Part shown: positions 1-32,556 of the stretch, piece after piece
Layout: every line of letters starts with the position of its first letter
Position numbering within the stretch: the first letter of the stretch is position 1
DNA from: a virus
Virus record (IMG/VR): IMGVR_UViG_3300037502_000794
Span: 1-34,853 of that record
DNA length: 34,853 bases
Direction: 5' to 3' (one strand)
Program-made: the position numbers and the translations under genes
The notes under the pieces: generated by a model
Told to the model about the DNA's origin: nothing
Databases searched by the model: none
The model's input: the letters and a program-made list of their open reading frames with translations, nothing else

Positions 1-183
1 TATTCATAATCATTGGCCCAATGCACCTGTTTCACAGGCTCGGGCTTGATGCGGAAGATGTAACGGAACTCTTCAAATGGCGATACCCATTCTCCCTTTT
101 TGCGGGTGGGTCTCCATGTTTCGCCATCCCACACTTCGATAATCTTCCCATAATGGAAAGCCACCAGCAGCCTGCCCTTTTCA
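1..183. repeat. Terminal direct repeat, left copy
   Basis: These 183 bases recur at 34671-34853. The only difference is A at 56 against G at 34726. The repeat ends inside a gene that reads continuously through the join, so it looks like the overlap of a circular assembly (unit 34,670 bp) rather than a natural end. The single mismatch may be population variation or an assembly error. Confidence 0.95.
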
Positions 184-233
184 TCGTCAGTCAGGTCGTT
201 CCAGATGCGCTTGTCTTCGTTCAGAAACTCCAT
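1..233 (-). CDS. Hypothetical protein, 5' part of junction-spanning gene
   Basis: I do not recognise this protein. The start is ATG at 233, preceded by GAGGAGAAGTGAC, a strong ribosome binding site, and one base after the stop of the 27-residue ORF upstream. The reading frame runs off the left edge and continues in the right-hand repeat copy to a stop at 34544, giving about 119 residues. A shorter start (GTG at 164, equal to 34834) would lose 23 residues and has no comparable binding site. The protein is rich in Trp, Tyr and charged residues and has no membrane segment. It belongs to the leftward early operon. Confidence 0.75.
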   Translation of the reverse strand, partial: MEFLNEDKRIWNDLTDDEKGRLLVAFHYGKIIEVWDGETWRPTRKKGEWVSPFEEFRYIFRIKPEPVKQVHWANDYE

Positions 234-234
234 G

Positions 235-318
235 TCACTTCTCCTCTCTTTTCCACTTGCGAAAAACCGCCCTGAAAGCCTCGGTCACGGCGCGCTCGAC
301 TTCTTCTTCGGTGATCAT
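235..318 (-). CDS. 27-residue hypothetical protein
   Basis: This very short ORF encodes a charged peptide starting MITEEEVERA and ending RKWKREEK. It is easily missed but well supported by context. Its ATG at 318 overlaps the upstream stop as ATGA, a GGAAGGTG binding site lies in front, and its TGA at 235 is one base from the next start at 233. It is probably a single amphipathic helix. Its function is unknown, and it may act mainly as a translational coupling link. Confidence 0.5.
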   Translation of the reverse strand: MITEEEVERAVTEAFRAVFRKWKREEK

Positions 319-536
319 GGCTGCACCTTCCGCGTCAAGTTGTCCGGCCTCGGCGGCGGCACAGGCACGGGTTCACGCAGAGCGACAGGTTCGCATCTGA
401 CCACCGCTCCGGGGTCTTCGTCGGCTATGATGTCCATCGCTGCCCGGCAGTGAGACATCTCGGCGTACATTCCAACATACCCATCCCACGATGGCGACAT
501 CGCCACGCTGAGAATGGTCACGGTCAATATTGACAT
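315..536 (-). CDS. Small hypothetical protein with hydrophobic N-terminus
   Basis: This is a 73-residue protein. ATG at 536 was chosen because GAGAGGA lies directly upstream, rather than the longer low-complexity extension to 638. The N-terminus (MSILTVTILSVAM) is hydrophobic and could be a short membrane anchor or signal sequence without a charged n-region. The C-terminus is proline-rich (PVPVPPPRP). It starts just inside the end of the 47-residue ORF and ends with an ATGA overlap to the 27-residue ORF. No family was recognised. Confidence 0.6.
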   Translation of the reverse strand: MSILTVTILSVAMSPSWDGYVGMYAEMSHCRAAMDIIADEDPGAVVRCEPVALREPVPVPPPRPDNLTRKVQP

Positions 537-996: not shown

Positions 997-1265
997 TCGA
1001 TTCTCCAAACTCGGAGTTCAGCTTTGCTTTTGTTGGTTCGCGTTGCGAACTTGCGCTTGAGCCTCTTGGCCAATACCATCGCACTTGCACGAATATTGAT
1101 GACCAGCCTGTTAAAGGTATCCGGGCTAGACTTGAATATGGCGCACTCACCGACCTTCATGGTCTCGGCCCACACATGCACGCGCGGACGCCCAACTGAC
1201 CTGCCACTGCTACGCTTCTTCTTCTCGAACGGGATGCCCTTCTTGATCTCGACCGTGTATTCCAT
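993..1265 (-). CDS. 90-residue basic hypothetical protein
   Basis: ATG at 1265 follows the upstream TAA by one base and is preceded by GGGGAAGAG. The protein is strongly basic, with an Arg/Lys/Ser-rich stretch around residues 15-28 (KKKRSSGRSVGRPR) and a basic helical C-terminal third (NIRASAMVLAKRLKRKF). This composition suggests nucleic acid binding. The middle (VGECAIFKSSPDTFNRL) resembles small phage proteins with an HTH-like C-terminus, but I cannot name a family. Confidence 0.6.
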   Translation of the reverse strand: MEYTVEIKKGIPFEKKKRSSGRSVGRPRVHVWAETMKVGECAIFKSSPDTFNRLVINIRASAMVLAKRLKRKFATRTNKSKAELRVWRIE

Positions 1266-1266
1266 G

Positions 1267-1548
1267 TTACTCTTCCCCTTTCTTTTCCATTTCAAGCAGA
1301 TACACTGCAATGATGATGTAGTTCGCCGCGTCCATGAGATGGTCCTTGTGGTATCCGCCACTCTCCATGCGCGCCAGCTTCGCCTCTGCCATCAGCAGAG
1401 ATGCTTCCCAAGGCTGGACATCGAACATGGTTACATGACGGAACCTCTCAGCCATTACGCTGAACGTATTTCGCAAGTCCCCGTGCGTCGTCGCCCGGTC
1501 CGCTATGATCGCCTTGAGTTCGTCGTGTAAGTCTGTAAGTTTCAACAA
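1267..1548 (-). CDS. DUF6378-like phage protein
   Basis: The pattern THGD near residue 20, then KLAR and a later DAANYIIIAVYLLE helix, matches the phage family DUF6378 (HGD, K-L-x-R, D-x-x-D-A-x-x-Y). The usual start codon is absent. The best start is TTG at 1548 or the adjacent TTG at 1545, because GGAGG lies at 1553-1557; an upstream GTG at 1578 has no binding site. The function of the family is unknown. Its all-helical fold with conserved acidic residues has suggested nucleotide-metabolism roles, which I cannot confirm here. The first 100 bases overlap the preceding zinc-ribbon ORF. Confidence 0.7.
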   Translation of the reverse strand: MLKLTDLHDELKAIIADRATTHGDLRNTFSVMAERFRHVTMFDVQPWEASLLMAEAKLARMESGGYHKDHLMDAANYIIIAVYLLEMEKKGEE

Positions 1549-1681
1549 GTTTCCTCCAGCATTCGTCGTTCCCAACACACACCACTTGCCTCGCGGCTGT
1601 GATGCCCCACCCCACCCCGAACTGGTCGTAGACCTCTCCGCAGTGAGCGCAGTAGACGTGGCTTGCCTTACGCTTGCCCAT
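1448..1681 (-). CDS. Zinc-ribbon-like small protein
   Basis: This is a 77-residue ORF from ATG 1681. Residues near 12 (YCAHCG) and near 37 (VCVGNDEC) supply the two cysteine pairs of a possible zinc ribbon. It overlaps the end of the upstream zinc protein by 14 bases. The C-terminal third overlaps the DUF6378 gene out of frame and is compositionally odd, so this part may be passenger sequence. Its role is unknown; DNA or RNA binding is plausible. Confidence 0.5.
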   Translation of the reverse strand: MGKRKASHVYCAHCGEVYDQFGVGWGITAARQVVCVGNDECWRKLVETYRLTRRTQGDHSGPGDDARGLAKYVQRNG

Positions 1682-1916
1682 CGTTCTCAAGATCCGGCGC
1701 GTAGAAGCCCCAGCCCTCGCACTGGCCGCAGTCCTCCCAGCCTTCCTCTGTGTTCGTGATCGGATCGCCGCCGAGAAAGATCATCCCTTCCCCGTTGCAA
1801 TGCGTGCAGACCTTGGCAGGGTAGCCGATCCCGTTCGCCAGCATCACCTTGCCGCCGTGCGGGTCCACGCTCATGCCGTCATACCTATACGCCACGGACC
1901 CACCCCATCTGCTCAA
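1668..1916 (-). CDS. DnaJ-type zinc-knuckle protein
   Basis: The protein contains two CxxCxGxG motifs, CTHCNGEG and CGQCEGWG, separated by about 25 residues, the arrangement of DnaJ-like cysteine-rich zinc knuckles. TTG at 1916 is supported by GAGGTGA just upstream and gives 82 residues. ATG at 1874 is the alternative (68 residues) with a weaker binding site, and keeps both motifs. The start overlaps the end of the resolvase-like gene. Such small proteins are common in phage early regions; a specific role is not known. Confidence 0.6.
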   Translation of the reverse strand: MSRWGGSVAYRYDGMSVDPHGGKVMLANGIGYPAKVCTHCNGEGMIFLGGDPITNTEEGWEDCGQCEGWGFYAPDLENDGQA

Positions 1917-2217
1917 TCATCACCTCGAAGCGATCCATCGGGATCACCACCAGCGTCTTCTGGTTGTCGTCACGGACAAACAAGCAATCGGCGTTATCTT
2001 GCGCGAGCGCGTCATAGAGCGTGGTGAAGGATTGCTTGCGGCGCTTGCACTCTGCGATCCACCCGAGCGACGGCCCGATCCGCAGATCGCCAGAGTAGTT
2101 GCCTTTGAGCGCACCGCTCAGTGGTATCCTCTCAGCCTCGCAGCCGATCTGACGCAGCCCGTTGACGATCTCGCGCTCATAGACAGCGCCCTTCACTTTG
2201 GACGACCTACCGCTCAT
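1885..2217 (-). CDS. Holliday-junction-resolvase-like PD-(D/E)XK nuclease
   Basis: This 110-residue protein has the layout of Hjc-type and other small PD-(D/E)XK nucleases: a basic N-terminal helix with glutamate (KGAVYEREIVNGL, Glu14/Glu16), then the catalytic Asp44 in SGDLRIG and the E-x-K core Glu56-Cys-Lys58 in IAECKRRKQSF. Such enzymes cut branched DNA and would resolve recombination or replication intermediates before packaging. It is joined to the HTH gene by an ATGA overlap. Another structure-specific or VRR-like nuclease role is possible. Confidence 0.7.
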   Translation of the reverse strand: MSGRSSKVKGAVYEREIVNGLRQIGCEAERIPLSGALKGNYSGDLRIGPSLGWIAECKRRKQSFTTLYDALAQDNADCLFVRDDNQKTLVVIPMDRFEVMIEQMGWVRGV

Positions 2218-2426
2218 TGCATCCCCATGTAGAAAGAGTCAGCCCGCACCGCGCCCATCGTCAGCGTCTTGATGCGAGACATGTAGCGAGGCGAAGGGAT
2301 CATCCTTTGGGGGTGTCCGACAGGCAAGCACCAACGCCGCACTATCGTAGCATGAGCCGCACCGAGCAGCTTCGCCAGCTTCCCGTAAGTCAGCTTCTTC
2401 TCGATCCTGTAGTCGTTCAGTGTCAT
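2214..2426 (-). CDS. Small helix-turn-helix regulator (Cro/CI-like)
   Basis: ATG at 2426 is preceded by AAGGAGGAC, a strong binding site. The longer ORF to 2504 would run across the divergent promoter. The 70-residue protein has a Cro/XRE-type HTH at about residues 10-33 (LTYGKLAKLLGAAHATIVRR). It is the first gene of the leftward early operon and faces the recombination operon across an 87-bp region that holds a dyad. It probably regulates one or both transcripts, like Cro in lambdoid phages; that role is inferred. Confidence 0.7.
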   Translation of the reverse strand: MTLNDYRIEKKLTYGKLAKLLGAAHATIVRRWCLPVGHPQRMIPSPRYMSRIKTLTMGAVRADSFYMGMQ

Positions 2427-2456
2427 GTCGTCCTCCTTGTGCAATGCTCTCCCATG

Positions 2457-2486
2457 CTTGACGCGATGTGTCAAGAGGGTTATGAA
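2457..2486 (+). promoter_or_regulatory. Sigma70-type promoter with dyad over -35
   Basis: TTGACG at 2458-2463 and TATGAA at 2481-2486 are separated by 17 bases and point into the exonuclease operon. The -35 lies in a perfect 6-bp inverted repeat, CTTGAC-N7-GTCAAG (2457-2475), a candidate operator for the neighbouring HTH protein. Read leftward, the same dyad offers TTGACA at 2474-2469 but no good -10 follows it. Confidence 0.6.
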
Positions 2487-2513
2487 CGAGCATCGAAAGC
2501 GCATGGAGATGGC

Positions 2514-5387: not shown

Positions 5388-5750
5388 ATGACGACGACCG
5401 AGGATACCGGCAGAGCGGGGGAGTATCTCGTGGCTTACCGCCTCGAGGTTGCTGGCGTCCGCACGGTCCACGTCAATTTGGCGGGCCATGATCTTTGGTG
5501 CCACACACCATCCGGCAGGCTCATATCCGTCCAAGTAAAAGCCAGTGCAACGCCATCGGTGCAGGATGACCGCACCTACTACATCTTCTACAATCGGAAC
5601 TCGTTCTGGCAGGCAAACGTCTTCGCTTTCGCCGACATCGACACCGGCCTCGTCATCTTCGAGCCAACTATGTCTAAGCGGAGAAAGATCCAAGTTGATG
5701 CCTTTACCCCAGAGCTGATGCGATCTTCGATAGCACGCTTTTTTTACTGA
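5388..5750 (+). CDS. PD-(D/E)XK endonuclease-like protein (PDDEXK_5 type)
   Basis: The 120-residue protein shows the core of a small PD-(D/E)XK nuclease: Glu12 in GRAGEYLVAYRL, Asp35 in HDLW and Gln49-Val-Lys51 in SVQVKAS, followed by aromatic strands (YYIFYNR, FAFADID). It resembles the PF11645-type endonuclease group. Its target is unknown: homing, host DNA attack, superinfection exclusion and branch resolution are all possible. It is a one-gene unit between convergent lysis genes and a divergent small operon, and its last 47 bases overlap the endolysin gene tail to tail. A downstream GTG with a GGGGGAG site would lose the GxxGE motif, so ATG 5388 is preferred. Confidence 0.65.
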   Translation: MTTTEDTGRAGEYLVAYRLEVAGVRTVHVNLAGHDLWCHTPSGRLISVQVKASATPSVQDDRTYYIFYNRNSFWQANVFAFADIDTGLVIFEPTMSKRRKIQVDAFTPELMRSSIARFFY

Positions 5751-6255
5751 CCATCGACATGGCCACCTCAAGCGTCTCGTCGTTGCGACGCAGCCAGCCC
5801 CGACCAAATGTCCCGAATGTAGGCAGGTTGCGGTAGAAATTCTCACGCATCAGGGCCAGCTTCTTGATGACCGTCGCCGGATCTGCCTTCTTCACAGCCG
5901 CGACCGTGGCCGCACCGATGCCGCCATCAGGCTCGACACCGACGATCTTCTGCAACGCTTTCGCGGCCCGCCCGGTGCCGCTGTTCACAGCCCAGTCGAA
6001 CACAGCCCAGTCCACACCGCTCGGCAGCTCGTCGCCCTTGACCTTGTCCCAGTACAACTTCTTGTACAACGGCGATACATCCGCGACGGTCAGCTTCTTC
6101 ATGGCGTCCTTGGCGGCGGGCTTGCCGATCCACTGCTCCCACACCTTGCGGGTGACACCGAGGTTCGTCTCGCCGCCGGGGTCTTTCGGGTGGTGCACAT
6201 AGCCGCCCTCATGTTTGAGCAGCATCTCAAGGCAGTCCGCAAAGTTGTCCTTCAT
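5704..6255 (-). CDS. Endolysin, glycosyl hydrolase family 108
   Basis: This 183-residue muralytic enzyme has the GH108 N-terminal signature with catalytic glutamate in KHEGGYVHHPKDPGGETN and NLGVT, and a C-terminal peptidoglycan-binding domain (about residues 95-165, with AVNSGTGRAAKALQKIVG and DGGIGAAT). It cuts peptidoglycan glycan strands at lysis. No signal peptide is seen, so it needs a holin. ATG 6255 follows AGGAGAAAGAG; an in-frame extension to 6345 lies inside the spanin gene. It is joined to the spanin by an ATGA overlap and overlaps the converging nuclease gene by 47 bases. Confidence 0.9.
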   Translation of the reverse strand: MKDNFADCLEMLLKHEGGYVHHPKDPGGETNLGVTRKVWEQWIGKPAAKDAMKKLTVADVSPLYKKLYWDKVKGDELPSGVDWAVFDWAVNSGTGRAAKALQKIVGVEPDGGIGAATVAAVKKADPATVIKKLALMRENFYRNLPTFGTFGRGWLRRNDETLEVAMSMVSKKSVLSKIASALG

Positions 6256-6590
6256 CTCTTTCTCCTGAACAAGTTCACAAAGCCGCGCGCTATCTCCTGC
6301 GGAGATGGTAGCACCCAGCCAACGACAAGCGCGATCCATACCCATATGGGTATGTCCTGCACGTTGTTGATCGTCACCGACTCGACCTGCGCGGCCTCGA
6401 CCTGCTTCGTCTCGGTGATGATGTCACGGCCAGCCTCGGTGCGCTCCTGATTGGCGACCAGTTGCTGCGTGTTCTCTTTGCCCGCCTGCACATTCGCTGC
6501 CACATTGGGGCCACCGCCGCCCAACATGCCAAGTGGCAGAGCGCCGCAGCCAGCGGTCAGCAGGAATATAGCCAGCAGGCTATACCTCAT
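6252..6590 (-). CDS. Unimolecular-spanin-like lipoprotein
   Basis: The 112-residue protein starts with a lipoprotein signal (MRYSLLAIFLLTAGCGAL; lipobox LTAGC). It ends with one hydrophobic segment (IPIWVWIALVVGWVL) followed by a positive tail (RRKR). An outer-membrane lipid anchor plus a C-terminal inner-membrane segment is the topology of u-spanins such as T1 gp11, which fuse the two membranes at lysis. It sits between a holin candidate and the endolysin. ATG 6590 was preferred over 6614 because the lipobox spacing is then normal. The linker (about 65 residues, ENTQQL...VESVTINNV) is short for a u-spanin. Confidence 0.65.
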   Translation of the reverse strand: MRYSLLAIFLLTAGCGALPLGMLGGGGPNVAANVQAGKENTQQLVANQERTEAGRDIITETKQVEAAQVESVTINNVQDIPIWVWIALVVGWVLPSPQEIARGFVNLFRRKR

Positions 6591-12580: not shown

Positions 12581-15046
12581 TTATCTGAACCCGCCGCCGA
12601 TGGACACGATGTCTGACGGGGGCAGCCAATACGTCTGGTCGTTCTCGCGTTGGATGCGCCGCTCCATTCTGCGGAGATAGCCGGGGTTGGCCGTCTCTTG
12701 CAGTTGATACCAGAGCAGATAGTTGAACGCTTCTTGCGTGTAGAACAAGTTGGCAAACGGGGTGTTGGACTTGAGCAGCCGGATCACATCACCCGATACA
12801 TCCTCGTCCTCGCCAGTCGCAACATCTCGCGCGCGTTGAAGCAGCGTAACCAGATCGGATACGGTGCCAGCCATAGGGCCAGCGAGCGTTTCCAGAGGGC
12901 CACCGCCGAACCTATTCGCCTCACCGAACAGGTAATCGCCATAGATGCCAAGCCCGCCGCCTTGCAGCATCGAGGCCATGAACAACTCTGCCGACGGCTC
13001 GCGCATGTCACGGCCTTTGGATAGTTCCTTGAGTTGCAGCACAAAGTAGCCAAGCACTGTAGTGCCGACGATGGACGTGATGAGTCCAGCATTTGCCCCA
13101 GCACCGCGCATGATCTGCTCTCTGAACGACTTGGCTCCGTAACCATACACTTGCCGCCCGAGCGCCTTGCTCAGAGCCGTGACGCCAAACGATTTGAACT
13201 GGAAGACAGAGCGTAGAGCCTGACCCGCGAGAGTGTCCGCACGATAGCCACGCTTCATAATCGCCCGTTCACGCGCACCGGCAGTTGGGACCGCAAAATC
13301 AGCCTCGGATGTCAGCAGAGCGAACACGCTCTCCCGCACATTCACGTCCTCGATGCCGCCCGGAACCAGATAATCACGACCATCAGGCCCCTTCTGAGCA
13401 TTCTTGCGAGCGATGTCCCATGCCGCCGAGTCGATTCCGTAGATGCGCAAAACCCGCTGCAAGTCAGGGGCCAGAGCATCGAAAGCCTTGCCTGATTCTC
13501 TACCAAGATCATTGGCGATGATGAGCGTGGCACCGCGCTTGTTCGCATCAGACCACGGCCCAAGTAGGTTCAGCTTGAAGAACAGTTGTTGCAGCTTTGC
13601 CAGCTTGCCCGGTGCGTCATCAGCAGGGTTGAAACGGGAATGGAAATCGCCAAGCACGCCCTCCAAGCCGACACCCATCCGATCCGCGAGTTCACGCATC
13701 TGCCCACGGTTGAGGCCACGGAACGGGGTCATCACGGCATCGCCCCACGCATCCAGCATGGAACGCCCCTGATACTGCCTGTTTGCTGCGTTGAAAGCTA
13801 TGTCAGTGAGCGACGAAATCCACGCGCCACCCAATTTGGACATGGTTTGCACCACACGGAAGCCAGCCATCCAGCGAGCAAAAGGCGTATCAATGCCGAA
13901 ATCAACTTCTCCACTTGCTTCGGCGAAGGCGGCATCAAGAGTCACAGCGGACACAGACCGTTCCAGACGGGCCAGCTTCTTCGGATCTGTGCGGTGCTTT
14001 TCCTTGAGCTTGTTGACAACCCTGTCGAGCATCGCGCGCGGGTTGGTGCCGAAGTTCTGCATCATCGCTGTAGCCTGCGCAGAGCCACGCAAATCCTCAA
14101 GGAACGCCTCTCGTAGGGAAGCGCGCCCAAACTTCTGATCGTAGTCAAACCAGTCATCCGCACTCTTGAAGATGAACAGCGACGATCTGCTCCGTAGTTT
14201 GGCTAGGTTCTGTGGCCCGGTGAACTCGAACATGCCCTCGGAACGGTCGCCGTCTTTCCGCACACCGCTGATAATCGCATCATAGGCGCTCTCAAGGAAA
14301 CCATCCACACGCTCCGGCGGGATGTCCATCTTGTCGTAGTCGAGTCTGCCCTTGATGTCTTGTTTCCACGCATCGAAGCCGACCTTCGTCATGCGCGCGG
14401 GGCTATGCACAGATTTCACAACACGCCCAGTCTTGAGCATGATGTTAGACCCGGCTGCGTTCTCACGCTGGAGTGCGGCGCGCTGATACTTGAACATGAC
14501 TTCGGCGATCTTCTTGGCGTCAGTGCTTGCGTCCACATTCGGATTACGAACAGGAGAGTTCAGATCCGACAGAGCGCGGGCAACCTCTCTCTCAAAGTCG
14601 CCAGACATGGTGTTGAACCGCGACAGCATGTTAGCCGCTTTGAGATCGGCCACCATTCCGCCAAGATACTCACCGAGCAACCCGCCAGAGATGGCATCCA
14701 CGGACCGCCGCGCGTTCTCGAACGGAGCATTGACGCCAACAAGCGCAGCCTCGATGCCGAGAGACGGATCGCCAACAGCCTGATCGGCGCGCTCTGCCTG
14801 CGTCAGAAGGTAGTTCTCTTTGATGATGTTGATGAGTTCATTGCGCTTTTTGATCTTTGCTGCTTGGTTGAGATCGCGCACGAACTTAGTGCCCTTCTCA
14901 AACAGAGCTTCCTCAAGCCCCTCAAGAGCACCAGCCGCAATCCGCGCGCGCTTCTCGCGCTGCAAGACCTCAAGTATCTCTTCAAGCTCGCCGTCATCCA
15001 GCCTGCCTGCGTTGATTTGGTCTAGTATCTTGAGGCAATCAGCCAT
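12581..15046 (-). CDS. Internal virion protein (T7 gp16 position)
   Basis: This 821-residue, mainly helical protein is the last of four genes between the tail tube and the fibre, where T7-like phages encode their ejected core proteins. It has glycine-rich hydrophobic stretches near the C-terminus (ANAGLITSIVGTTVLGYFVL) and no visible transglycosylase motif, unlike T7 gp16. It probably forms the channel that carries DNA across the cell envelope. ATG 15046 overlaps the upstream stop (TGATG). The family was inferred from size, order and composition. Confidence 0.65.
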   Translation of the reverse strand: MADCLKILDQINAGRLDDGELEEILEVLQREKRARIAAGALEGLEEALFEKGTKFVRDLNQAAKIKKRNELINIIKENYLLTQAERADQAVGDPSLGIEAALVGVNAPFENARRSVDAISGGLLGEYLGGMVADLKAANMLSRFNTMSGDFEREVARALSDLNSPVRNPNVDASTDAKKIAEVMFKYQRAALQRENAAGSNIMLKTGRVVKSVHSPARMTKVGFDAWKQDIKGRLDYDKMDIPPERVDGFLESAYDAIISGVRKDGDRSEGMFEFTGPQNLAKLRSRSSLFIFKSADDWFDYDQKFGRASLREAFLEDLRGSAQATAMMQNFGTNPRAMLDRVVNKLKEKHRTDPKKLARLERSVSAVTLDAAFAEASGEVDFGIDTPFARWMAGFRVVQTMSKLGGAWISSLTDIAFNAANRQYQGRSMLDAWGDAVMTPFRGLNRGQMRELADRMGVGLEGVLGDFHSRFNPADDAPGKLAKLQQLFFKLNLLGPWSDANKRGATLIIANDLGRESGKAFDALAPDLQRVLRIYGIDSAAWDIARKNAQKGPDGRDYLVPGGIEDVNVRESVFALLTSEADFAVPTAGARERAIMKRGYRADTLAGQALRSVFQFKSFGVTALSKALGRQVYGYGAKSFREQIMRGAGANAGLITSIVGTTVLGYFVLQLKELSKGRDMREPSAELFMASMLQGGGLGIYGDYLFGEANRFGGGPLETLAGPMAGTVSDLVTLLQRARDVATGEDEDVSGDVIRLLKSNTPFANLFYTQEAFNYLLWYQLQETANPGYLRRMERRIQRENDQTYWLPPSDIVSIGGGFR

Positions 15047-16911
15047 CACGACCTCGCAGTGCAAATGGTGGCGGCAGTCATAACTTCTCCGTAAGCCTCG
15101 ACACGCGCATCAAGCCTAGCGAGATCTGCGAGCACGGCCTCGTATTCTGGTGTCATCTCACCGGCGAGCCGCATCTGGTCAATCGTAGCCATGCTGCGCT
15201 CGATGTAGCTGTCGTAGTCGAGTTCGTCTTTGACCCTGTTCGCAGTCTCAGATGCCCGGATGTTTGCAAGAGGATCGGTATTCGCCTTGCGCGCCACATC
15301 CTGCACAGCCCTCGTCGTGAGCCGACCTGTCTGCGTGTAAAGCCCCTCGATGGCCGTTTCCAGATCGGAGCCGTTCCGCGCCATGATGCTTGAGACGACA
15401 GCAACCTCGCCATCGGTGATTTCCTCAAAGCCTAGTTCTCGCGCACCACGCTTGATGTCATCCCGCCGACGAACCTCGGCCTCAGCCGCATCTTTCGCGG
15501 CACTGTACTTGACCCATGCTTTGGAACGTCTAGCATTGCGCGCCGAAAACACGGGTTCGCCGCCGAACTCCAGTGTCAACTTGTCAACAAGTTCGCTGAC
15601 CTTCGTCGTCTTGATGAACCCGGCCTTCTGTGCCTGAGCAGCCATCGTCTCAAGCGTGTCTCGCGCGCCGGGGTTGTTGACGTTGGCTATCGCAGTGCGC
15701 TTGCCGGGGGCTGGGACAAACGGTTCCGGGGCAAAACCGATCTCCGCGAGCTTTCCTTCTGATCCGGGCAGAGTGTCGGCAATGCCGCCGCGAGAACGCA
15801 CGAACTCGACCAGTGTCTGTGGCCGCTTCACCACTTTCGGCATCACGACAGACACATCTACGCCCTGATCGAGCACCATCTGGCGCACAGCCAACTCTGC
15901 CGTCTTCCGCCCATTCATCTGTTCGTAGAACGCTGCCGCCCTAGATGCCTGAGAAGAGATGTCTTGCGGGGTCTTGGTCGCAGCGACAGGAGCGGCAACT
16001 TGCGGAAGTTGAGGATCAAGATCAGTGCGGAGAGCCGTCTCAGGCTCAGTCAGCTTGCGAACCTCACCAGCATCCACGCCACGCCGAGTGATAACCCCAG
16101 CCGCTGCTCCAAGGCCACCGCCGAGAAGCGTGCCAGCGCCGACATTGAGCAGAGCATCACCCATCGTGTAGTCGAGTTGCAACTGCCGCGAGAGTCCGTA
16201 GTACGCAGTCTCCGTAATCGCAGCGCCGACCGTGCCCTCTACAGCCCCGACAGCCGCGCGCCCCGTAATACGACCGAATCTCGCTGTCGCAGCCACACGG
16301 CCTGCCTGCCCGACAACAGGGATGAACGATGAGGCCAAGTCGATAGGATCAGTCGCAGCAACGACAACGCCGCCAAGAACAGCGACGCCAATACCACTCA
16401 ACCCACCCGGACCAGACTCGATAATTGATTCCCTGACGATCTGTTCCTTCTTGTTCTCGTACAACAGGCGAGCAGCGAGTTCCGTAGTCGGGCGCTCAAA
16501 CTCAAGGAACCCTGCATACTTCTTGTTGAGTTCCTCGACAGAAACCAGACGACCATCGTCGATGGCTTCCTGCGTCATGGCTTGGAAGGCTACATTGTCC
16601 TGTCCAGCCATGCTGGCGAGTTCGTCACGGTATTCCTGCTTGCGGCGCTCATCTGTCGAGTTCATCAACAGGTCTTCAAGATAACGCTGTCTGAGTTTGC
16701 GCTCGCGCTGCGCCTCCTTGAACGACTGCATCTGTTCATTTGTGATCGCACCGACCTGCGCCTGACCGACCTCGACCGCCTCAAGGATCAGCCCACCAGT
16801 ACCCGGCGTTTTGATCGTCTCAGCGAACGCGCGAGTTGCACTGACCGCCTGCCTAGCAAACGCATCAGCGCGGAGAGGTTCGTTGTCTGTTGCGAGCGGC
16901 CTTGGCCTCAT
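15046..16911 (-). CDS. Internal virion protein, glycine-rich hydrophobic core
   Basis: The 621-residue protein has a helical charged N-terminus, a long hydrophobic Gly/Ala/Val region at about residues 165-285 (GLSGIGVAVLGGVVVAATDP, then LLNVGAGTLLGGGLGAAAGV) and a helical C-terminus. This fits a protein stored in the capsid and inserted into the envelope on DNA ejection. It is joined by ATGA to the upstream gene and by TGATG to the next. No enzymatic motif was recognised. Confidence 0.6.
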   Translation of the reverse strand: MRPRPLATDNEPLRADAFARQAVSATRAFAETIKTPGTGGLILEAVEVGQAQVGAITNEQMQSFKEAQRERKLRQRYLEDLLMNSTDERRKQEYRDELASMAGQDNVAFQAMTQEAIDDGRLVSVEELNKKYAGFLEFERPTTELAARLLYENKKEQIVRESIIESGPGGLSGIGVAVLGGVVVAATDPIDLASSFIPVVGQAGRVAATARFGRITGRAAVGAVEGTVGAAITETAYYGLSRQLQLDYTMGDALLNVGAGTLLGGGLGAAAGVITRRGVDAGEVRKLTEPETALRTDLDPQLPQVAAPVAATKTPQDISSQASRAAAFYEQMNGRKTAELAVRQMVLDQGVDVSVVMPKVVKRPQTLVEFVRSRGGIADTLPGSEGKLAEIGFAPEPFVPAPGKRTAIANVNNPGARDTLETMAAQAQKAGFIKTTKVSELVDKLTLEFGGEPVFSARNARRSKAWVKYSAAKDAAEAEVRRRDDIKRGARELGFEEITDGEVAVVSSIMARNGSDLETAIEGLYTQTGRLTTRAVQDVARKANTDPLANIRASETANRVKDELDYDSYIERSMATIDQMRLAGEMTPEYEAVLADLARLDARVEAYGEVMTAATICTARS

Positions 16912-27849: not shown

Positions 27850-28298
27850 CAGACATTCCTCCTGTAGATCCCGCCATCATGGGCAAAGCCTAGGCGCCGC
27901 AACATCCTTCCCGTCCTCTCTACCATAATCCCGGACGAAACCCCAACAGATACTTGACAGCAGCCCATTTCCCTGCCCCACGCCTCATACGCGCGCAGCA
28001 ACCCACGCCCGAGCAACATCCCGCGCCGATCCGGCTTGACATAGAACACCACGTCGAAACCGAACAACTCCCGCGAAAACCAGTTCTCGGCGCACGCAAC
28101 CAGCAACACACCAGCCACCTCGCCGCCGACCTCCCCGACAAAACCTGTCAGGTTCCACAACCCGGCGCAGTGACTGTCTACCTGCCGCTCAACCTTGTCC
28201 CAGCACAACTCAACACGCGAATACACACCCTCACGGTGCAGATCCCGCAACATGCCCAAGACAACCGGGCGATCTGTAGCTTCAAAGCGACGTATCAT
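27849..28298 (-). CDS. GNAT-family acetyltransferase-like protein
   Basis: The 149-residue protein has the GNAT fold pattern: N-terminal helix (DRPVVLGMLRDLHREG), strands VGEVGGEVAGVLLVA and DVVFYVKPDRRG, the acetyl-CoA binding loop (RRGMLLGRGLLRAYEAWG) and a final strand (YRRNV). Such genes often sit between terminase and portal in podoviruses. The substrate is unknown; acetylation of a host or virion protein is possible. It overlaps the terminase by ATGA. Confidence 0.85.
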   Translation of the reverse strand: MIRRFEATDRPVVLGMLRDLHREGVYSRVELCWDKVERQVDSHCAGLWNLTGFVGEVGGEVAGVLLVACAENWFSRELFGFDVVFYVKPDRRGMLLGRGLLRAYEAWGREMGCCQVSVGVSSGIMVERTGRMLRRLGFAHDGGIYRRNV

Positions 28299-29569
28299 GC
28301 CGCGAACGGATCATAGTCCATGATCGCCTTCTGCTGAGGAACCTTGCCCGCACCGCCACCCTCTCTCAAACCCACCGCCAGATACCGGAACGCATCCGCC
28401 GCATGGCTCGACCAGTCATGCACCGGGCTGGCACGGAAGCTGCGCGTCCGCTCATTGTACGCCCGGTGATACTGCCGCAACGCCTCCAGCCCCGCCTTGC
28501 ACGCCTCACGGTCAATCCAGATCCGAGGCAACAGCATCTGCGCCGCGTGTATCCCGTCCTCCAACGGCAGGTTCGGCACCACGCGGAAGTTCAGGCCCAA
28601 ATCCCACGCAACCTCGCGCCGACTCTTCCCCGACCCCAGCTCGCGGACCTCGATGTCATGCGGCGCGTTGTGCGTCCCGTAGAGATACCGCCGCTCCGTC
28701 AGCACCTTGCAGTAATGCGGCAACCCCTCGCCACGAGCCTCGTAGAAGTCGATCACATGCAGCGAACGGCCCACGCTCTGCGTAAACCAGATCGCCGTGC
28801 TATCACCTACACCCAGATCCCACCATGTATCTACCCGGAAGCTCGGGTCATACGGAACCTTCGTCACGCGCCCCGCCGCCGTCAGCTCCTCCAACTCCTT
28901 GCCGTAGATCGCACCCGGAATATTGGCCGCCCACGAACACTCGAACTCCTGCGCATACTGGTCCGGCGTCATCATCCGACGCGCAGCCTCCAGTTCCTCC
29001 TCCGGCAAGATCCCCGTCTCGCTCGCCCGGTAAACCGCCGCCAGCCAGTCCTCGTCCCCCGTGGCCTGCTCATACAGGTCGTAGAACATGTTCTGACCCT
29101 TGGGCGTCCCGACGAAAATGCACCAACCGCCGCGATCCGACAGCGCAGGCCGGATGACCTCGGGGAACACACTCTCCGGCATGTCCGCAACCTCGTCCAT
29201 CACGCAGCCGTCGAGATAGATACCCCGCAAGCTATCCGGGTTCTCCGCACCCAGCAGGCTGATCCGCGCCCCGTTCGGCAAATCACAGCGCAACTCCGTC
29301 TCGTGGAACTTCACACCCGGCACCGCACCCGCGAACTGCTTGAGATAGTCCCACGCCACGTTCTTCGCCTGCCGATACGTCGGGGCCATATACGCAAACC
29401 GGGGATTGCTCTTGGCGCACATGAACGCATCGCGCAGAATGTGGTTGATCGCCCACACCGTCTTGCCAAACCGCCGATGACAGACAACCACGCCCCAGCG
29501 CCGCTTCGCCATCTCGTTGTGCAGCCGCAACTGCAACGGACGCGGAGCATACGGGATCACAACCTGCAT
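28295..29569 (-). CDS. terL: Terminase large subunit
   Basis: The 424-residue packaging motor shows the ATPase Walker A (CHRRFGKT, 30-37), Walker B (IYLDGCVMDE, Asp125-Glu126) and the coupling motif GTPKG (154-158). The nuclease domain has Asp251 and Asp256 in WWDLGVGDSTAI and a final acidic motif in HDWSSHAADAFRYLA. It cuts concatemers and pumps DNA into the shell through the portal. It starts with TGATG overlap to the 55-residue gene and ends with ATGA to the GNAT gene. Confidence 0.95.
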   Translation of the reverse strand: MQVVIPYAPRPLQLRLHNEMAKRRWGVVVCHRRFGKTVWAINHILRDAFMCAKSNPRFAYMAPTYRQAKNVAWDYLKQFAGAVPGVKFHETELRCDLPNGARISLLGAENPDSLRGIYLDGCVMDEVADMPESVFPEVIRPALSDRGGWCIFVGTPKGQNMFYDLYEQATGDEDWLAAVYRASETGILPEEELEAARRMMTPDQYAQEFECSWAANIPGAIYGKELEELTAAGRVTKVPYDPSFRVDTWWDLGVGDSTAIWFTQSVGRSLHVIDFYEARGEGLPHYCKVLTERRYLYGTHNAPHDIEVRELGSGKSRREVAWDLGLNFRVVPNLPLEDGIHAAQMLLPRIWIDREACKAGLEALRQYHRAYNERTRSFRASPVHDWSSHAADAFRYLAVGLREGGGAGKVPQQKAIMDYDPFAA

Positions 29570-29736
29570 CAGTGAATCACCCGGTTGACCACCTTCATCA
29601 CGCCCATCTGCTCCAGAAGCGTCTCGTAGATGTCCAAGATAAGCAACGCAATCTCCAGCGCCTCGTCCAAATCATCGCGCTCAATGGCGTCCTCAAGGTC
29701 GCCCTGCATCGCCTGCAACTGCTCGCTCAAGCTCAC
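29569..29736 (-). CDS. 55-residue acidic hypothetical protein between terS and terL
   Basis: This ORF bridges terS and terL precisely: GTG 29736 overlaps the terS stop (GTGA) and its TGA overlaps the terL ATG (TGATG). The peptide is acidic and helical (LQAMQGDLEDAIERDDLDEA, then ALLILDIYETLLEQMG). It has no known family. Its position suggests a small terminase cofactor or a translational coupling link between the two subunits. Confidence 0.65.
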   Translation of the reverse strand: MSLSEQLQAMQGDLEDAIERDDLDEALEIALLILDIYETLLEQMGVMKVVNRVIH

Positions 29737-30239
29737 TCCGCAGCCCTTACTTCAACCTCGCCACCAGCCCAGCTAATCGTCATAGCCTGATGCTGCGGCT
29801 TGTCACTCTGACGATCCCGTATCCCATTGGGCGACAAAACGCCCTTCGTCCAGCGGATCGTGTCAATCTCCAGCTTGCGACGCTGCATCTCAGCATTGAG
29901 CCATCGCGCATCCATCGGCTTGCCATCCGCATCATGCGTCGGCAACGGAGCACTCGCCAGCATCGTAGCGCGGTCAGCAAGATACTCAGCCTGCCGAACA
30001 CGCCCGTGCCGGTAGATCTCGTACATCTCCTCGCTCGAACCAACCGCACGCATCACCGTGCTGTAGTCCGGCATCTCAGGCTCGCCGAGGATCTCAAGCA
30101 AGTTGCGGCCAATCGCCATCTCATCCGAGATGTAGCGCATCAACTGCACCGTCATCCGAACGCCCTTGCGAGGACGCATCGCAGGCAGCGAATAATCGGG
30201 ACCAGCAGCCTTGCCTTGCGAAACACGCTTTGTGGGCAT
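29733..30239 (-). CDS. terS: Terminase small subunit
   Basis: The 168-residue protein, first in the late operon and just before terL, has the pattern of small terminases: an HTH-like region (TVQLMRYISDEMAIGRNLLE, then EPEMPDYSTVMRAVGSSEEM), the Y..R..RVRQAEYLADRA helix and a C-terminal tail. It binds the packaging site and recruits the large subunit. GCAGGAGGTGCCCC precedes ATG 30239, a near-perfect site; the ORF extension to 30335 lacks one. Confidence 0.75.
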   Translation of the reverse strand: MPTKRVSQGKAAGPDYSLPAMRPRKGVRMTVQLMRYISDEMAIGRNLLEILGEPEMPDYSTVMRAVGSSEEMYEIYRHGRVRQAEYLADRATMLASAPLPTHDADGKPMDARWLNAEMQRRKLEIDTIRWTKGVLSPNGIRDRQSDKPQHQAMTISWAGGEVEVRAAE

Positions 30240-30288
30240 GGGGCACCTCCTGCGAGCAAGATAGGGGAAGTCGGGTCGCAATGGAAGC

Positions 30289-30312
30289 GGGACGGGACAG
30301 GACAGGGACAGG
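30289..30312. repeat. Tandem GGGACA-type repeats near the terS start
   Basis: A 24-base stretch consists of GGGAC, GGGACA, GGACA, GGGACA and GG in a row, about 50 bp upstream of the terS start. A short iterated motif next to terS could be a terminase recognition (pac or cos) element. That role is inferred. Confidence 0.5.
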
Positions 30313-30375
30313 CTGTGAGGCAGACACTCTCCCACGAGGGTATATTACGCAGCTACAGCCGCACGGGTGTTTCGC

Positions 30376-30757: not shown

Positions 30758-30787
30758 CTTGACACCTACTGTCACGCATTGCATATC
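30758..30787 (+). promoter_or_regulatory. Promoter with dyad for the ardC-like operon
   Basis: TTGACA at 30759-30764 is followed after 17 bases by CATATC (30782-30787), a weak -10. The -35 lies in a dyad, TGACA-CCTAC-TGTCA, which shares CTTGAC-N7-GTCA with the promoter at 2457-2486. A GGCATGCC palindrome lies just upstream (30751). Confidence 0.45.
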
Positions 30788-30835
30788 TAGGACCGAGGCC
30801 ACAACGGCCCACACACTGCACACAGGAGACACACA

Positions 30836-31747
30836 ATGACCACCGACACCGCAGACATCCACAGCACCATCACCGATGCCATCGTATCCGCCATAGAAGC
30901 TGGAGTCGGCGAGTGGCAAATGCCTTGGCACAAGTCTGGCAACGGGCTGCACCGCCCGGTCAACATCGACACCGGCAAGCGTTATCGTGGCGTCAACATC
31001 CTCAGCCTTTGGGCGTCATCGCAGCGCAACGGCTTTACGTCCGGCACTTGGGGCACTTACAAGCAATGGCAAGCGCGCGGCGCTCAGGTTCGCAAGGGCA
31101 TGAAGGGCACGCCCGTCGTGTTCTATAAGACATTTGAAGTTGAGACGCAGACAGACGCAGGAGACGCAGAAACAAGCACGCGCATGGTTGCCCGTGGTAG
31201 CTATGTGTTTAACGCGGATCAAGTTGACGGATACACCGCTCCGCCTGTTGAGGCCACGTCTGATCCCGTGTCATTCATCGACACCGCAGAGGCTTTCATC
31301 CGCGACACTGGTGCGACAATCCGCTTCGGCGGGAACGCTTACTACAGCCCCACGGGCGATTTCGTGAATATGCCCCACCCGCACGAGTTCATCGGCACCG
31401 CCACAAGCACCGCCGGTGAGTGCTACTATTCGACAATCCTGCACGAACTTGCACACTGGACCAGCCCCGCGAAGCGGTGCGATAGGCAACTGGGCAAGCG
31501 TTTCGGCGATGCCGCGTATGCGATGGAAGAGCTTGTGGCAGAGCTTGCAGCCGCGTTCCTCTGCGCTGATCTTGGCATCACTTCATCGCCGCGACCAGAC
31601 CATGCGTCCTACATCCAGTCATGGTTGCGCGTGCTGAAAGCTGACAAGAAAGCAATATTCACCGCCGCGAGCGCAGCATCCAAGGCGTGCGATTATCTCG
31701 ACTCGCTGCAATCCGACACCACAGAAGACGCCGCAGAAGCGGCATAA
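30836..31747 (+). CDS. ardC: ArdC-like antirestriction protein (ssDNA-binding + metallopeptidase)
   Basis: The 303-residue protein has an N-terminal ArdC/DUF1738 ssDNA-binding domain (about 8-130; WQMPWHKSGNGLHRPVNIDT and RGVNILSLWASSQRNGFTSG) and a C-terminal zincin-like domain with HELAH at 203-207. A downstream acidic helix follows (MEELVAELAAAFLCADLGI, about 230-248). ArdC-type proteins protect incoming DNA from restriction and are found on plasmids and phages. It is expressed away from the structural genes under its own promoter, with AGGAG at 30824-30828. Whether proteolysis is part of its role is not known. Confidence 0.9.
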   Translation: MTTDTADIHSTITDAIVSAIEAGVGEWQMPWHKSGNGLHRPVNIDTGKRYRGVNILSLWASSQRNGFTSGTWGTYKQWQARGAQVRKGMKGTPVVFYKTFEVETQTDAGDAETSTRMVARGSYVFNADQVDGYTAPPVEATSDPVSFIDTAEAFIRDTGATIRFGGNAYYSPTGDFVNMPHPHEFIGTATSTAGECYYSTILHELAHWTSPAKRCDRQLGKRFGDAAYAMEELVAELAAAFLCADLGITSSPRPDHASYIQSWLRVLKADKKAIFTAASAASKACDYLDSLQSDTTEDAAEAA

Positions 31748-31772
31748 CCACCACACACACAGGAGACACACC

Positions 31773-31856
31773 ATGCACCACGTCCACGACGCCATCGAGG
31801 CCGCTCTGTTTCTGCTCTTCTGCGTGATCGTCTTCGGCGTGATCTACCCGCTCTGA
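31773..31856 (+). CDS. 27-residue single-span membrane protein
   Basis: This ORF follows the ardC-like gene by 25 bases, with a leader (AGGAGACACACC) almost identical to that gene's own. The peptide is MHHVHDAIEA followed by a hydrophobic span (ALFLLFCVIVFGVIYPL), so it should insert as one helix. The tight fit between the ardC-like stop and the terminator at 31881, and the strong binding site, make it likely to be expressed. Its function is unknown; superinfection exclusion or host membrane interference are guesses. Confidence 0.6.
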   Translation: MHHVHDAIEAALFLLFCVIVFGVIYPL

Positions 31857-31880
31857 CGCACCACCGCACCACACTCGCTG

Positions 31881-31910
31881 AGAGGGGCCGCTGAGGCCCC
31901 TCTTTCATTT
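31881..31910 (+). terminator. Rho-independent terminator of the ardC-like operon
   Basis: A perfect 9-bp stem, AGAGGGGCC with GGCCCCTCT (31881-31889 and 31895-31903), has loop GCTGA and is followed by TTCATTT. It ends the rightward accessory unit. On the other strand there is no U-tract, so the early leftward operon ending at 31960 lacks an obvious strong terminator; a GGCGCT-AGG-AGCGCC hairpin overlaps its last stop codon (31953-31967). Confidence 0.85.
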
Positions 31911-31959: not shown

Positions 31960-32556
31960 CTAGCGCCTCTGAGAGGCATCGTATCCCAGCGCCCTCGCTT
32001 CATCCGCCCAGATGTCGCCCGGCTCCACCCTCTTGAGCCTCGCCAGCACCTCGACGTGGTGCTCGAACTCTGCCGCGAACATCGGCTCCACCAGCGCCTT
32101 TCTGGTATCCTCCGCTCCAGTAGCGAAACCGCGCCACCGCGCTTCCCGCAGCGATCCGATCACGCCCCGCTCGATCAATGCCCTTGTGGTCTCCGGCGTA
32201 TTGCTGCTTGGGAATGGCGTCCGATGCTCGGCGTACCACTGCGCCGCCAATTCGGTGACGTTCTCCACCGCATTGCCAATCGCCGCACGATTGCCCGCTA
32301 TGCTTTTCGCCGCCGCTTCGATCTCGCTCTGTATCGGCCAGCTATGCGTCTTCATCCGCGAGAGCAGCGCATCCTCGAATTGTTGCCACCACTCCTCCAG
32401 CCGATCCCTCGGCGCGTATTTCGCCACCGCCCTGACGAGTGCAGCAACCTCCGCTTTCTGCGCCTCCTCGCTGCTTGCAATTGCCCGTGACGGACTCCGC
32501 CTCGACAGTATGCCCATCATCCGCCTCAGCAGATCAGCTTGATGCAGTCCACTCAT
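31960..32556 (-). CDS. 198-residue helical protein downstream of the replication gene
   Basis: I do not recognise this protein. It is helical and charged, with LEEWWQQFEDALLSRMKTHS, IQSEIEAAAKSIAGNRAAIG and a C-terminal VEVLARLKRVEPGDIWADEA. It lies directly after the DUF1376 gene with a 23-base overlap, where lambdoid phages encode helicase loaders, but no P-loop is present. A replication accessory role is therefore only suggested by position. It is the last gene of the leftward early operon. Confidence 0.6.
   Translation of the reverse strand: MSGLHQADLLRRMMGILSRRSPSRAIASSEEAQKAEVAALVRAVAKYAPRDRLEEWWQQFEDALLSRMKTHSWPIQSEIEAAAKSIAGNRAAIGNAVENVTELAAQWYAEHRTPFPSSNTPETTRALIERGVIGSLREARWRGFATGAEDTRKALVEPMFAAEFEHHVEVLARLKRVEPGDIWADEARALGYDASQRR

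Follow-up and report, generated by a model that had tools for sequence, protein, structure and literature searches.

A divergent operon beside the terminase genes of an HTVC010P-type phage: a probable exchangeable counter-restriction cassette ending in a constant gene for a tiny membrane protein

The ardC operon and its setting

The stretch of DNA analysed, hereafter the window, is the 34,853-base virus record IMGVR_UViG_3300037502_000794. Its plus strand carries an ardC gene coding for 303 residues (30836-31747) and, behind it, an ORF for 27 residues (31773-31856), both at the coordinates and of the lengths given in a preliminary description of this DNA; no other gene was seen in the operon. 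They are flanked by genes on the minus strand, that of the terminase small subunit on the left (29733-30335; Pfam, PHROGs) and, on the right, a convergent gene for a 198-aa protein (31960-32556), which the sister contig L142 has too. The gene of the terminase large subunit, TerL (28295-29569, minus strand), recognised by Pfam, PHROGs and a terminase search, served as the anchor of the slot. The phage is of the HTVC010P type and has the set of portal, TerL and virion protein genes known from that group. Its portal is nearest to those of HTVC010P-type Pelagibacter phages (at most 60% identity over the full length), its virion proteins are matched in PHROGs and the gene order around TerL is that of HTVC010P. 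The group is described among the most abundant marine viruses in the available text of PMC10504331. The G+C content is 61% in the two sister contigs nearest to the window.

The preliminary description had given the two genes a shared promoter and terminator. At the end of the operon, the terminator holds up in the form of a terminator-like hairpin (31880-31904, plus strand; 10-bp GC-rich stem, -21.1 kcal/mol, z -3.55), unchanged in all four aligned sequences, the window counted, and absent from the output of a simple terminator scan. Upstream lies a tentative promoter-like element, TTGACA-17-CATATC (30759-30787, plus strand), whose TTGACA is kept in L142, where the -10 differs by one base; this -10 is poor and a consensus promoter scan did not call the element, and the single promoter has to be regarded as plausible. 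Rfam searches of the window and of the sister contigs L136, L142 and L144 were empty, as was a tRNA search of the window, and PADLOC returned only marginal matches, for one neighbour protein.

The duplicated leader that had first drawn attention to the pair proved to be an exact 16-mer, CACACAGGAGACACAC, a Shine-Dalgarno block found on the plus strand one base before each ATG (copy 1 at 30819-30834 ahead of ardC, copy 2 at 31756-31771 ahead of the 27-aa ORF). No third copy was found in the window with up to three mismatches allowed, and shuffled controls gave a mean of 0.33 such matches, with two or more in 6 of 100. In IMG/VR, the 16-mer followed by one base and an ATG occurs in 59 stretches, mostly before unrelated genes, and in the sister operons the leader, exact or with two mismatches, precedes the 105-, 74-, 55- or 27-aa gene, the first gene of the L142 slot having a different one. 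On these grounds the leader was rejected as a signal pairing ardC with the 27-aa ORF. It looks like the ribosome-binding block of the operon, and perhaps it is also a recombination joint.

The ArdC-like identity of the larger protein was confirmed. It combines an N-terminal ArdC-N domain of the ssDNA-binding kind (PF08401, 4.1e-39, residues 7-125) with a C-terminal zincin domain, MPTase-PolyVal (PF18818, 1.6e-47), both nearly full length; it also matches phrog_7245 and, at 1e-59, the structures of R388 ArdC (PDB 6I89, 6SNA). The motifs HELAH (residues 203-207) and EE (231-232) align to R388 H201/E202/H205/E228/E229, the zincin ligands being kept. Phage and R388/pSa proteins are therefore alike in both domains, the HExxH motif and the glutamate helix, with similarity over residues 6-290, but the phage ArdC is not plasmid-borne, sits in a divergent operon and is known here from its sequence. 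According to the accessible part of PMC7213743, R388 ArdC overcomes HsdRMS restriction in conjugation, its protease activity is not required in P. putida, and conjugation to that host still proceeds with the metal-site mutant E229A; descriptions of ArdC and its domains are already contained in that text and in the portion of PMC5512222 at hand. Because the E229A mutant of R388 retains this function, DNA shielding is the likelier mode of action of the phage ArdC, rather than proteolysis. The protein belongs to the counter-restriction type and probably shields viral DNA from the host.

The closest relative found for this ArdC, at 65% identity, lies in a Rhodospirillaceae MAG (best 80 loci of 111 relatives), and a Rhizobiaceae plasmid carries one with 60% identity, while viral copies reach 51% (best 80 loci of 84), or 53% with another scoring. 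Among the relatives found, the nearest by sequence are alphaproteobacterial and closer than the phage copies (51-53%), and the window gene was probably acquired from alphaproteobacterial DNA. A distant ArdC (34%) was noticed in another HTVC010P-like contig, L204 (85-957, minus strand), upstream of TerL and on the opposite strand, in a locus that ends just behind this gene; its presence suggests that ardC has been acquired repeatedly.

Occupants of the slot in sister contigs

The large-terminase search returned at least 599 stretches, the best 80 of which were used. Two of the contigs, L142 and L116, are colinear with the window, with 94-97% DNA identity on both sides of the slot, the homology breaking at 30816 and about 31740. 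No ardC match was obtained in either, though the identical 27-aa protein is present. From the promoter side to the 27-aa gene, the L142 slot holds ORFs of 45, 105, 74 and 55 aa, L116 has the same genes, and in L144 ORFs of 69, 101, 106, 61 and 59 aa are followed by a homologue of the 27-aa gene; since all three contigs are incomplete, at 6.9-8.8 kb, the absence of ardC applies to the slot only. A different arrangement was met in L136, which is 31,955 bases long and came up in the search for the leader string; to either side of the slot this contig is colinear with the window. Its slot comprises a C5 methylase gene, the last 35 codons of ardC, ORFs of 55 and 74 aa and the gene of the identical 27-aa protein. 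The ardC remnant begins directly after the methylase stop and, together with leader 2, corresponds to 31640-31775 of the window (plus strand; 99.3% over 136 nt); no further ardC was found in L136. In two other contigs inspected by eye, L143 and L146, the small terminase gene had no operon of this kind next to it.

The C5 methylase of L136, an ORF of 456 aa, is recognised by PF00145 (1.8e-12) and phrog_363 (6.5e-80), while its NCBIfam score, 35.9 bits, does not reach the cut-off of 100.65. It has a large insert, in which an HNH-like ORF is situated, and may be inactive. The HNH-endonuclease-like ORF (1269-1616, minus strand; phrog_1271, 1.8e-13) uses a different frame from the methylase ORF that encloses it (1141-2511, minus strand) and is possibly a homing insertion. 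All sister sequences are metagenome contigs, and the arrangement in L136 could be an assembly join.

The 105-aa protein of L142 and L116 and its 106-aa form in L144 also occur in the terminase loci L172, L200 and L218, and the gene is absent from the slot of the window phage. The protein is strongly acidic (net charge -15 over 105 residues in the L142 form and -16 over 106 in the L144 form) and nine homologues align. It was modelled with AF2, the best of five models (pLDDT 82.5; the others 61-72) being used. With VIA-align, the top six rows for this model were T7 Ocr (Z 7.1-8.3, 98-100 of the 105 residues), the next unrelated structure reaching 4.4, and another model, built with the diverged L233 sequence in the lead, gave Ocr in the top five rows (Z 6.6-8.3; next 5.3); both models share the same nine sequences, and helical bundles can reach such Z values without kinship. 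Foldseek with the 105-aa model returned nothing at E<=0.001, its best E being above 1, a profile search of PDB sequences did not list Ocr up to E 10, phage isolates gave no match at E<=1, and no Pfam, PHROG or NCBIfam model matched. The T7 protein, the product of gene 0.3, is the best structural match, acidic and of similar length, but no sequence similarity to it was detected. An Ocr-like fold is considered likely and an Ocr-like function plausible.

The gene content, the differing occupants and the constancy of the 27-aa gene can be read directly from the contigs. Because the DNA lying between promoter side and 27-aa gene varies among sisters that are otherwise 94-97% identical to the window, the slot is regarded as exchangeable, and the divergent operon next to the terminase genes probably represents a counter-restriction cassette of interchangeable content, with a separate, constant gene for a 27-aa membrane protein in last position. 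As for the manner of exchange, homology to the window ends a few bases before leader 1, at 30816 in L142 and at 30813 in L136, other breaks are situated around leader 2, and the 3' end of ardC with leader 2 is 88% identical, over 58 columns, to the 3' end of the 105-aa gene with its leader. The other break in L136 lies inside ardC (31640), away from any leader, and confidence in the cassette reading is lowered for this reason.

The slot might instead be a plain variable region of small genes, in which three counter-restriction-like occupants came together by coincidence. Phage early operons are variable in general, most of the slot genes match no family in Pfam or PHROGs, and the ORFs of 45, 55 and 74 aa, as well as those of 69, 101, 61 and 59 aa in L144, have no known link to restriction. 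Nevertheless, three different occupants within one close clade each point to restriction evasion, and an unrelated ArdC stands at the corresponding place in L204, so that mere coincidence is considered unlikely.

The 27-aa protein and tiny membrane ORFs of related phages

The 27-aa protein, MHHVHDAIEAALFLLFCVIVFGVIYPL, encoded on the plus strand (31773-31856), has one hydrophobic stretch (17-residue hydropathy mean 2.83) and looks like a small membrane protein with a single predicted hydrophobic helix. It is identical in L142 (the same as L085), L116 and L136 and 63% identical in L144, its ORF being the last of the operon in all four of these contigs, whose slots all lack an intact ardC. In addition, its gene precedes the same hairpin in the four sequences compared. 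Could conservation of the surrounding leader and terminator account for an ORF that is not translated? Besides the window, four contigs only carry it, and the DNA around it is conserved as well. Against this stand the codon changes, all of them synonymous (three of three relative to L142 and three of three relative to L136), the retention of length and hydrophobic core in L144 (dN 0.24, dS 0.44), a Shine-Dalgarno sequence ahead of the ORF in the window, L142 and L136, and analogous tiny membrane ORFs in relatives. An untranslated ORF is the least probable of the explanations weighed here; the sequence looks like a real, conserved and overlooked hydrophobic coding sequence, worth annotating.

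The preliminary description had suggested that ArdC and the small protein may form one host-defence evasion unit and that the same ORF be sought behind other ardC genes. By tblastn against 220 loci, including 80 viral ardC loci, the 27-aa protein was found at E<1 only in the window itself and in the sister contigs; six of the viral loci (L019, L057, L066, L074, L078, L080) end within 200 nt of ardC. Among 85 bacterial or plasmid ardC loci, three of them with fewer than 200 bases, the best E was 0.29, for short pieces, and neither a plasmid collection nor, apart from the Amigovirus resemblance described below, the phage isolates contained a homologue. Scanning for the pattern FGVIYPL-stop produced seven stretches, namely the four contigs with the 27-aa ORF and three (L222-L224) lacking it, and a looser pattern matched 36 stretches with no further homologue. 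Nor did small membrane ORFs prove to accompany ardC in general: none lay within 400 nt of ardC in the 82 readable loci of the 85 bacterial or plasmid ones, and a narrow filter passed none in the 22 readable of the 80 viral loci. By eye, some viral ardC loci do carry a small membrane ORF, for instance L009/L011, L047/L058 and L038/L040/L041.

A joint unit, in which ArdC would be brought to the DNA entry site by the 27-aa protein as its anchor or partner in the membrane, would agree with the adjoining genes, the common leader and hairpin and the presence of only two genes in the window operon. The small ORF nonetheless persists in the slot of four sister contigs lacking an intact ardC, no homologue of it stands beside the 80 viral or 85 bacterial and plasmid ardC genes, some of these loci being short, and the available text of PMC7213743 names no small membrane partner for R388 ArdC. 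Such a unit is very improbable; what survives of the earlier proposal is the counter-restriction character of ArdC and the conservation of the small ORF among sisters, its pairing with ardC being unsupported and their association not conserved.

Being tiny and having one hydrophobic helix, the 27-aa protein could also be thought of as a lysis protein (a small holin, pinholin or antiholin). Its gene is placed outside any lysis cassette, the endolysin gene (5704-6345, minus strand) lying on the other strand and 25 kb off on the linear contig, or some 9 kb in the case of a circular genome. Moreover, the known holins with one span, T4 T for example, have a large extra domain. A role in lysis is accordingly held to be improbable.

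Some resemblance was noted between 31773-31853 and the first 25 residues of gp87 of Arthrobacter phage Thunderclap (L267, 1501-1704), due to kinship or convergence. The family of this Amigovirus protein, phrog_23104 ('membrane protein'), matches the 27-aa protein with an HMM E of 5.6e-4 (0 of 1000 shuffles; tblastn E 8) and does not match the homologue in L144. Gp87 differs from the 27-aa protein in having 67 aa, in coming from an actinophage and in its gene context.

Comparable operons, beside TerL and on the opposite strand, exist in cultured HTVC010P-type phages, namely gp59-64 of HTVC010P and the equivalents in HTVC034P, HTVC203P, Lederberg, Greip, HTVC100P, HTVC204P and Skadi-1. They too are trains of small genes, with similar leaders in five of six tested, and contain no ArdC match at E 1e-5 and no homologue of the 27-aa ORF. 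In six cultured relatives, the operon leaders were more alike than the other leaders of the same genome, four of the six at 0 of 2000 draws, with Lederberg at 0.0225 and HTVC010P at 0.36 (HTVC100P, Skadi-1 and a few genes excluded); when only leaders bearing a Shine-Dalgarno sequence were taken, in a run that also excluded Lederberg, three of five stood at 0 of 2000, HTVC034P at 0.002 and HTVC010P at 0.20.

Tiny membrane ORFs, defined by a length of 22-60 aa, a hydropathy of 2.0 or more over 17 residues and a tetramer resembling a Shine-Dalgarno sequence, number eight on the operon strand of these eight cultured phages, six of which have one or more (none in HTVC034P and Greip), as compared with zero antisense in 19,253 bases and 17 outside the operon in 258,633 bases of both strands. 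When the window and three sisters are added, all four preselected for the ORF, the count becomes 12, spread over 10 of the 12 operons, where 0.1 would be expected. Five of the eight fill annotation gaps (two in HTVC010P, two in HTVC204P, one in HTVC203P), that of HTVC100P faces an annotated gene on the other strand, that of Lederberg is annotated with a longer start and that of Skadi-1 is annotated. The two in HTVC010P (L270, 34095-34226 and 33805-33915, minus strand) are so placed that one shares four bases with the end of gp64 and the other begins right after gp63.

Furthermore, 34 of the best 80 terminase loci, those with at least about 3 kb upstream and L142 excluded, were scanned, and a tiny membrane ORF was found on the divergent strand in 19, two of them doubtful (L158, L162) and many being near copies of each other, and on the terminase strand in none. 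In the five readable loci of type F1, the ORF is the last before a hairpin and T run, 5-7 of 13 control windows being as good, and it is the last before a hairpin in L192, L202, L218, L147, L233 and L234, where 0-2 of 13 controls were as good. The tiny ORF does not hold such a last position before a hairpin in L172, L179, L186, L219, L196, L148, L228, L229 and L232, nor does either tiny ORF of L203 within 50 nt, nor do four of the five isolate ORFs checked. Shuffle tests linked the window type with F2b (1 of 1000) and F1 with F3 (0 of 1000) but gave no link between the window type and F1 (737 of 1000). Within types F1-F4, dN was lower than dS in every differing pair for which both could be computed.

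A putative protective operon and its precedents

If the operon is an exchangeable counter-restriction cassette, we infer its activities and their timing, recombination at the leaders and membrane insertion as follows. In the window phage, the cassette would consist of ArdC, most likely coating the phage DNA and blocking host restriction early in infection, and in the sisters a C5 DNA methyltransferase, by self-methylation, or an Ocr-like acidic protein, as a DNA mimic, would take its place together with other small genes. The repeated leaders would function as ribosome-binding blocks and, in part of the exchanges, offer a short homologous sequence. The one-helix 27-aa protein would probably act on a target in the host membrane and not on ArdC. 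A wider proposal, possible though doubtful, is that HTVC010P-type phages possess a dedicated operon in which a protector (ArdC, Ocr-like mimic or methylase) is swapped at the leaders and combined with a constant tiny membrane protein serving a second, membrane-side function, such as keeping the DNA of rivals from entering or neutralising a defence bound to the membrane. As part of this tentative proposal, the tiny membrane proteins, about 25-56 aa long, would belong to a single overlooked family or to a small number of them.

An antirestriction protein of family PF08401 has already been reported in BMMRE, a draft genome of an HTVC010P-related freshwater phage, and is like the window ArdC in protein family and phage group; the available portion of that report mentions its presence only, with no slot, swaps or small ORF (PMC6811365). 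As regards variability, the accessible text of PMC10504331 places a hypervariable region of HTVC010P-like phages at 13,646-15,713 of Skadi-1, with an uncharacterised protein and a lectin-domain protein, elsewhere than the ardC operon. Among the matches listed in the literature on this phage group, there was no swap slot, Ocr-like protein or tiny membrane protein. ArdC in the group is therefore known, and no description was found of the exchanges, of the Ocr-like model or of the membrane ORFs missed in annotation.

The operon amounts to a natural swap experiment, in which close sister phages differ in their presumed means of restriction evasion, and tests of it would show which restriction barriers matter to these phages. 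Moreover, it provides a candidate Ocr-like family outside the Pfam, PHROG and NCBIfam models, as well as tiny membrane ORFs that are missing from the annotation of cultured members of a virus group which, as far as the text at hand goes, is very abundant in the sea.

Two observations concern existing annotations. Relatives of ArdC are labelled as MarR regulator or DNA primase in the records of CRP-804 (gp1, L277) and of Brevundimonas phages. In HTVC100P (L282), a 55-aa membrane ORF resembling gp7 of Skadi-1 (182-349, plus strand) lies opposite the annotated gp02 (148-342, minus strand), which may have been annotated on the wrong strand.
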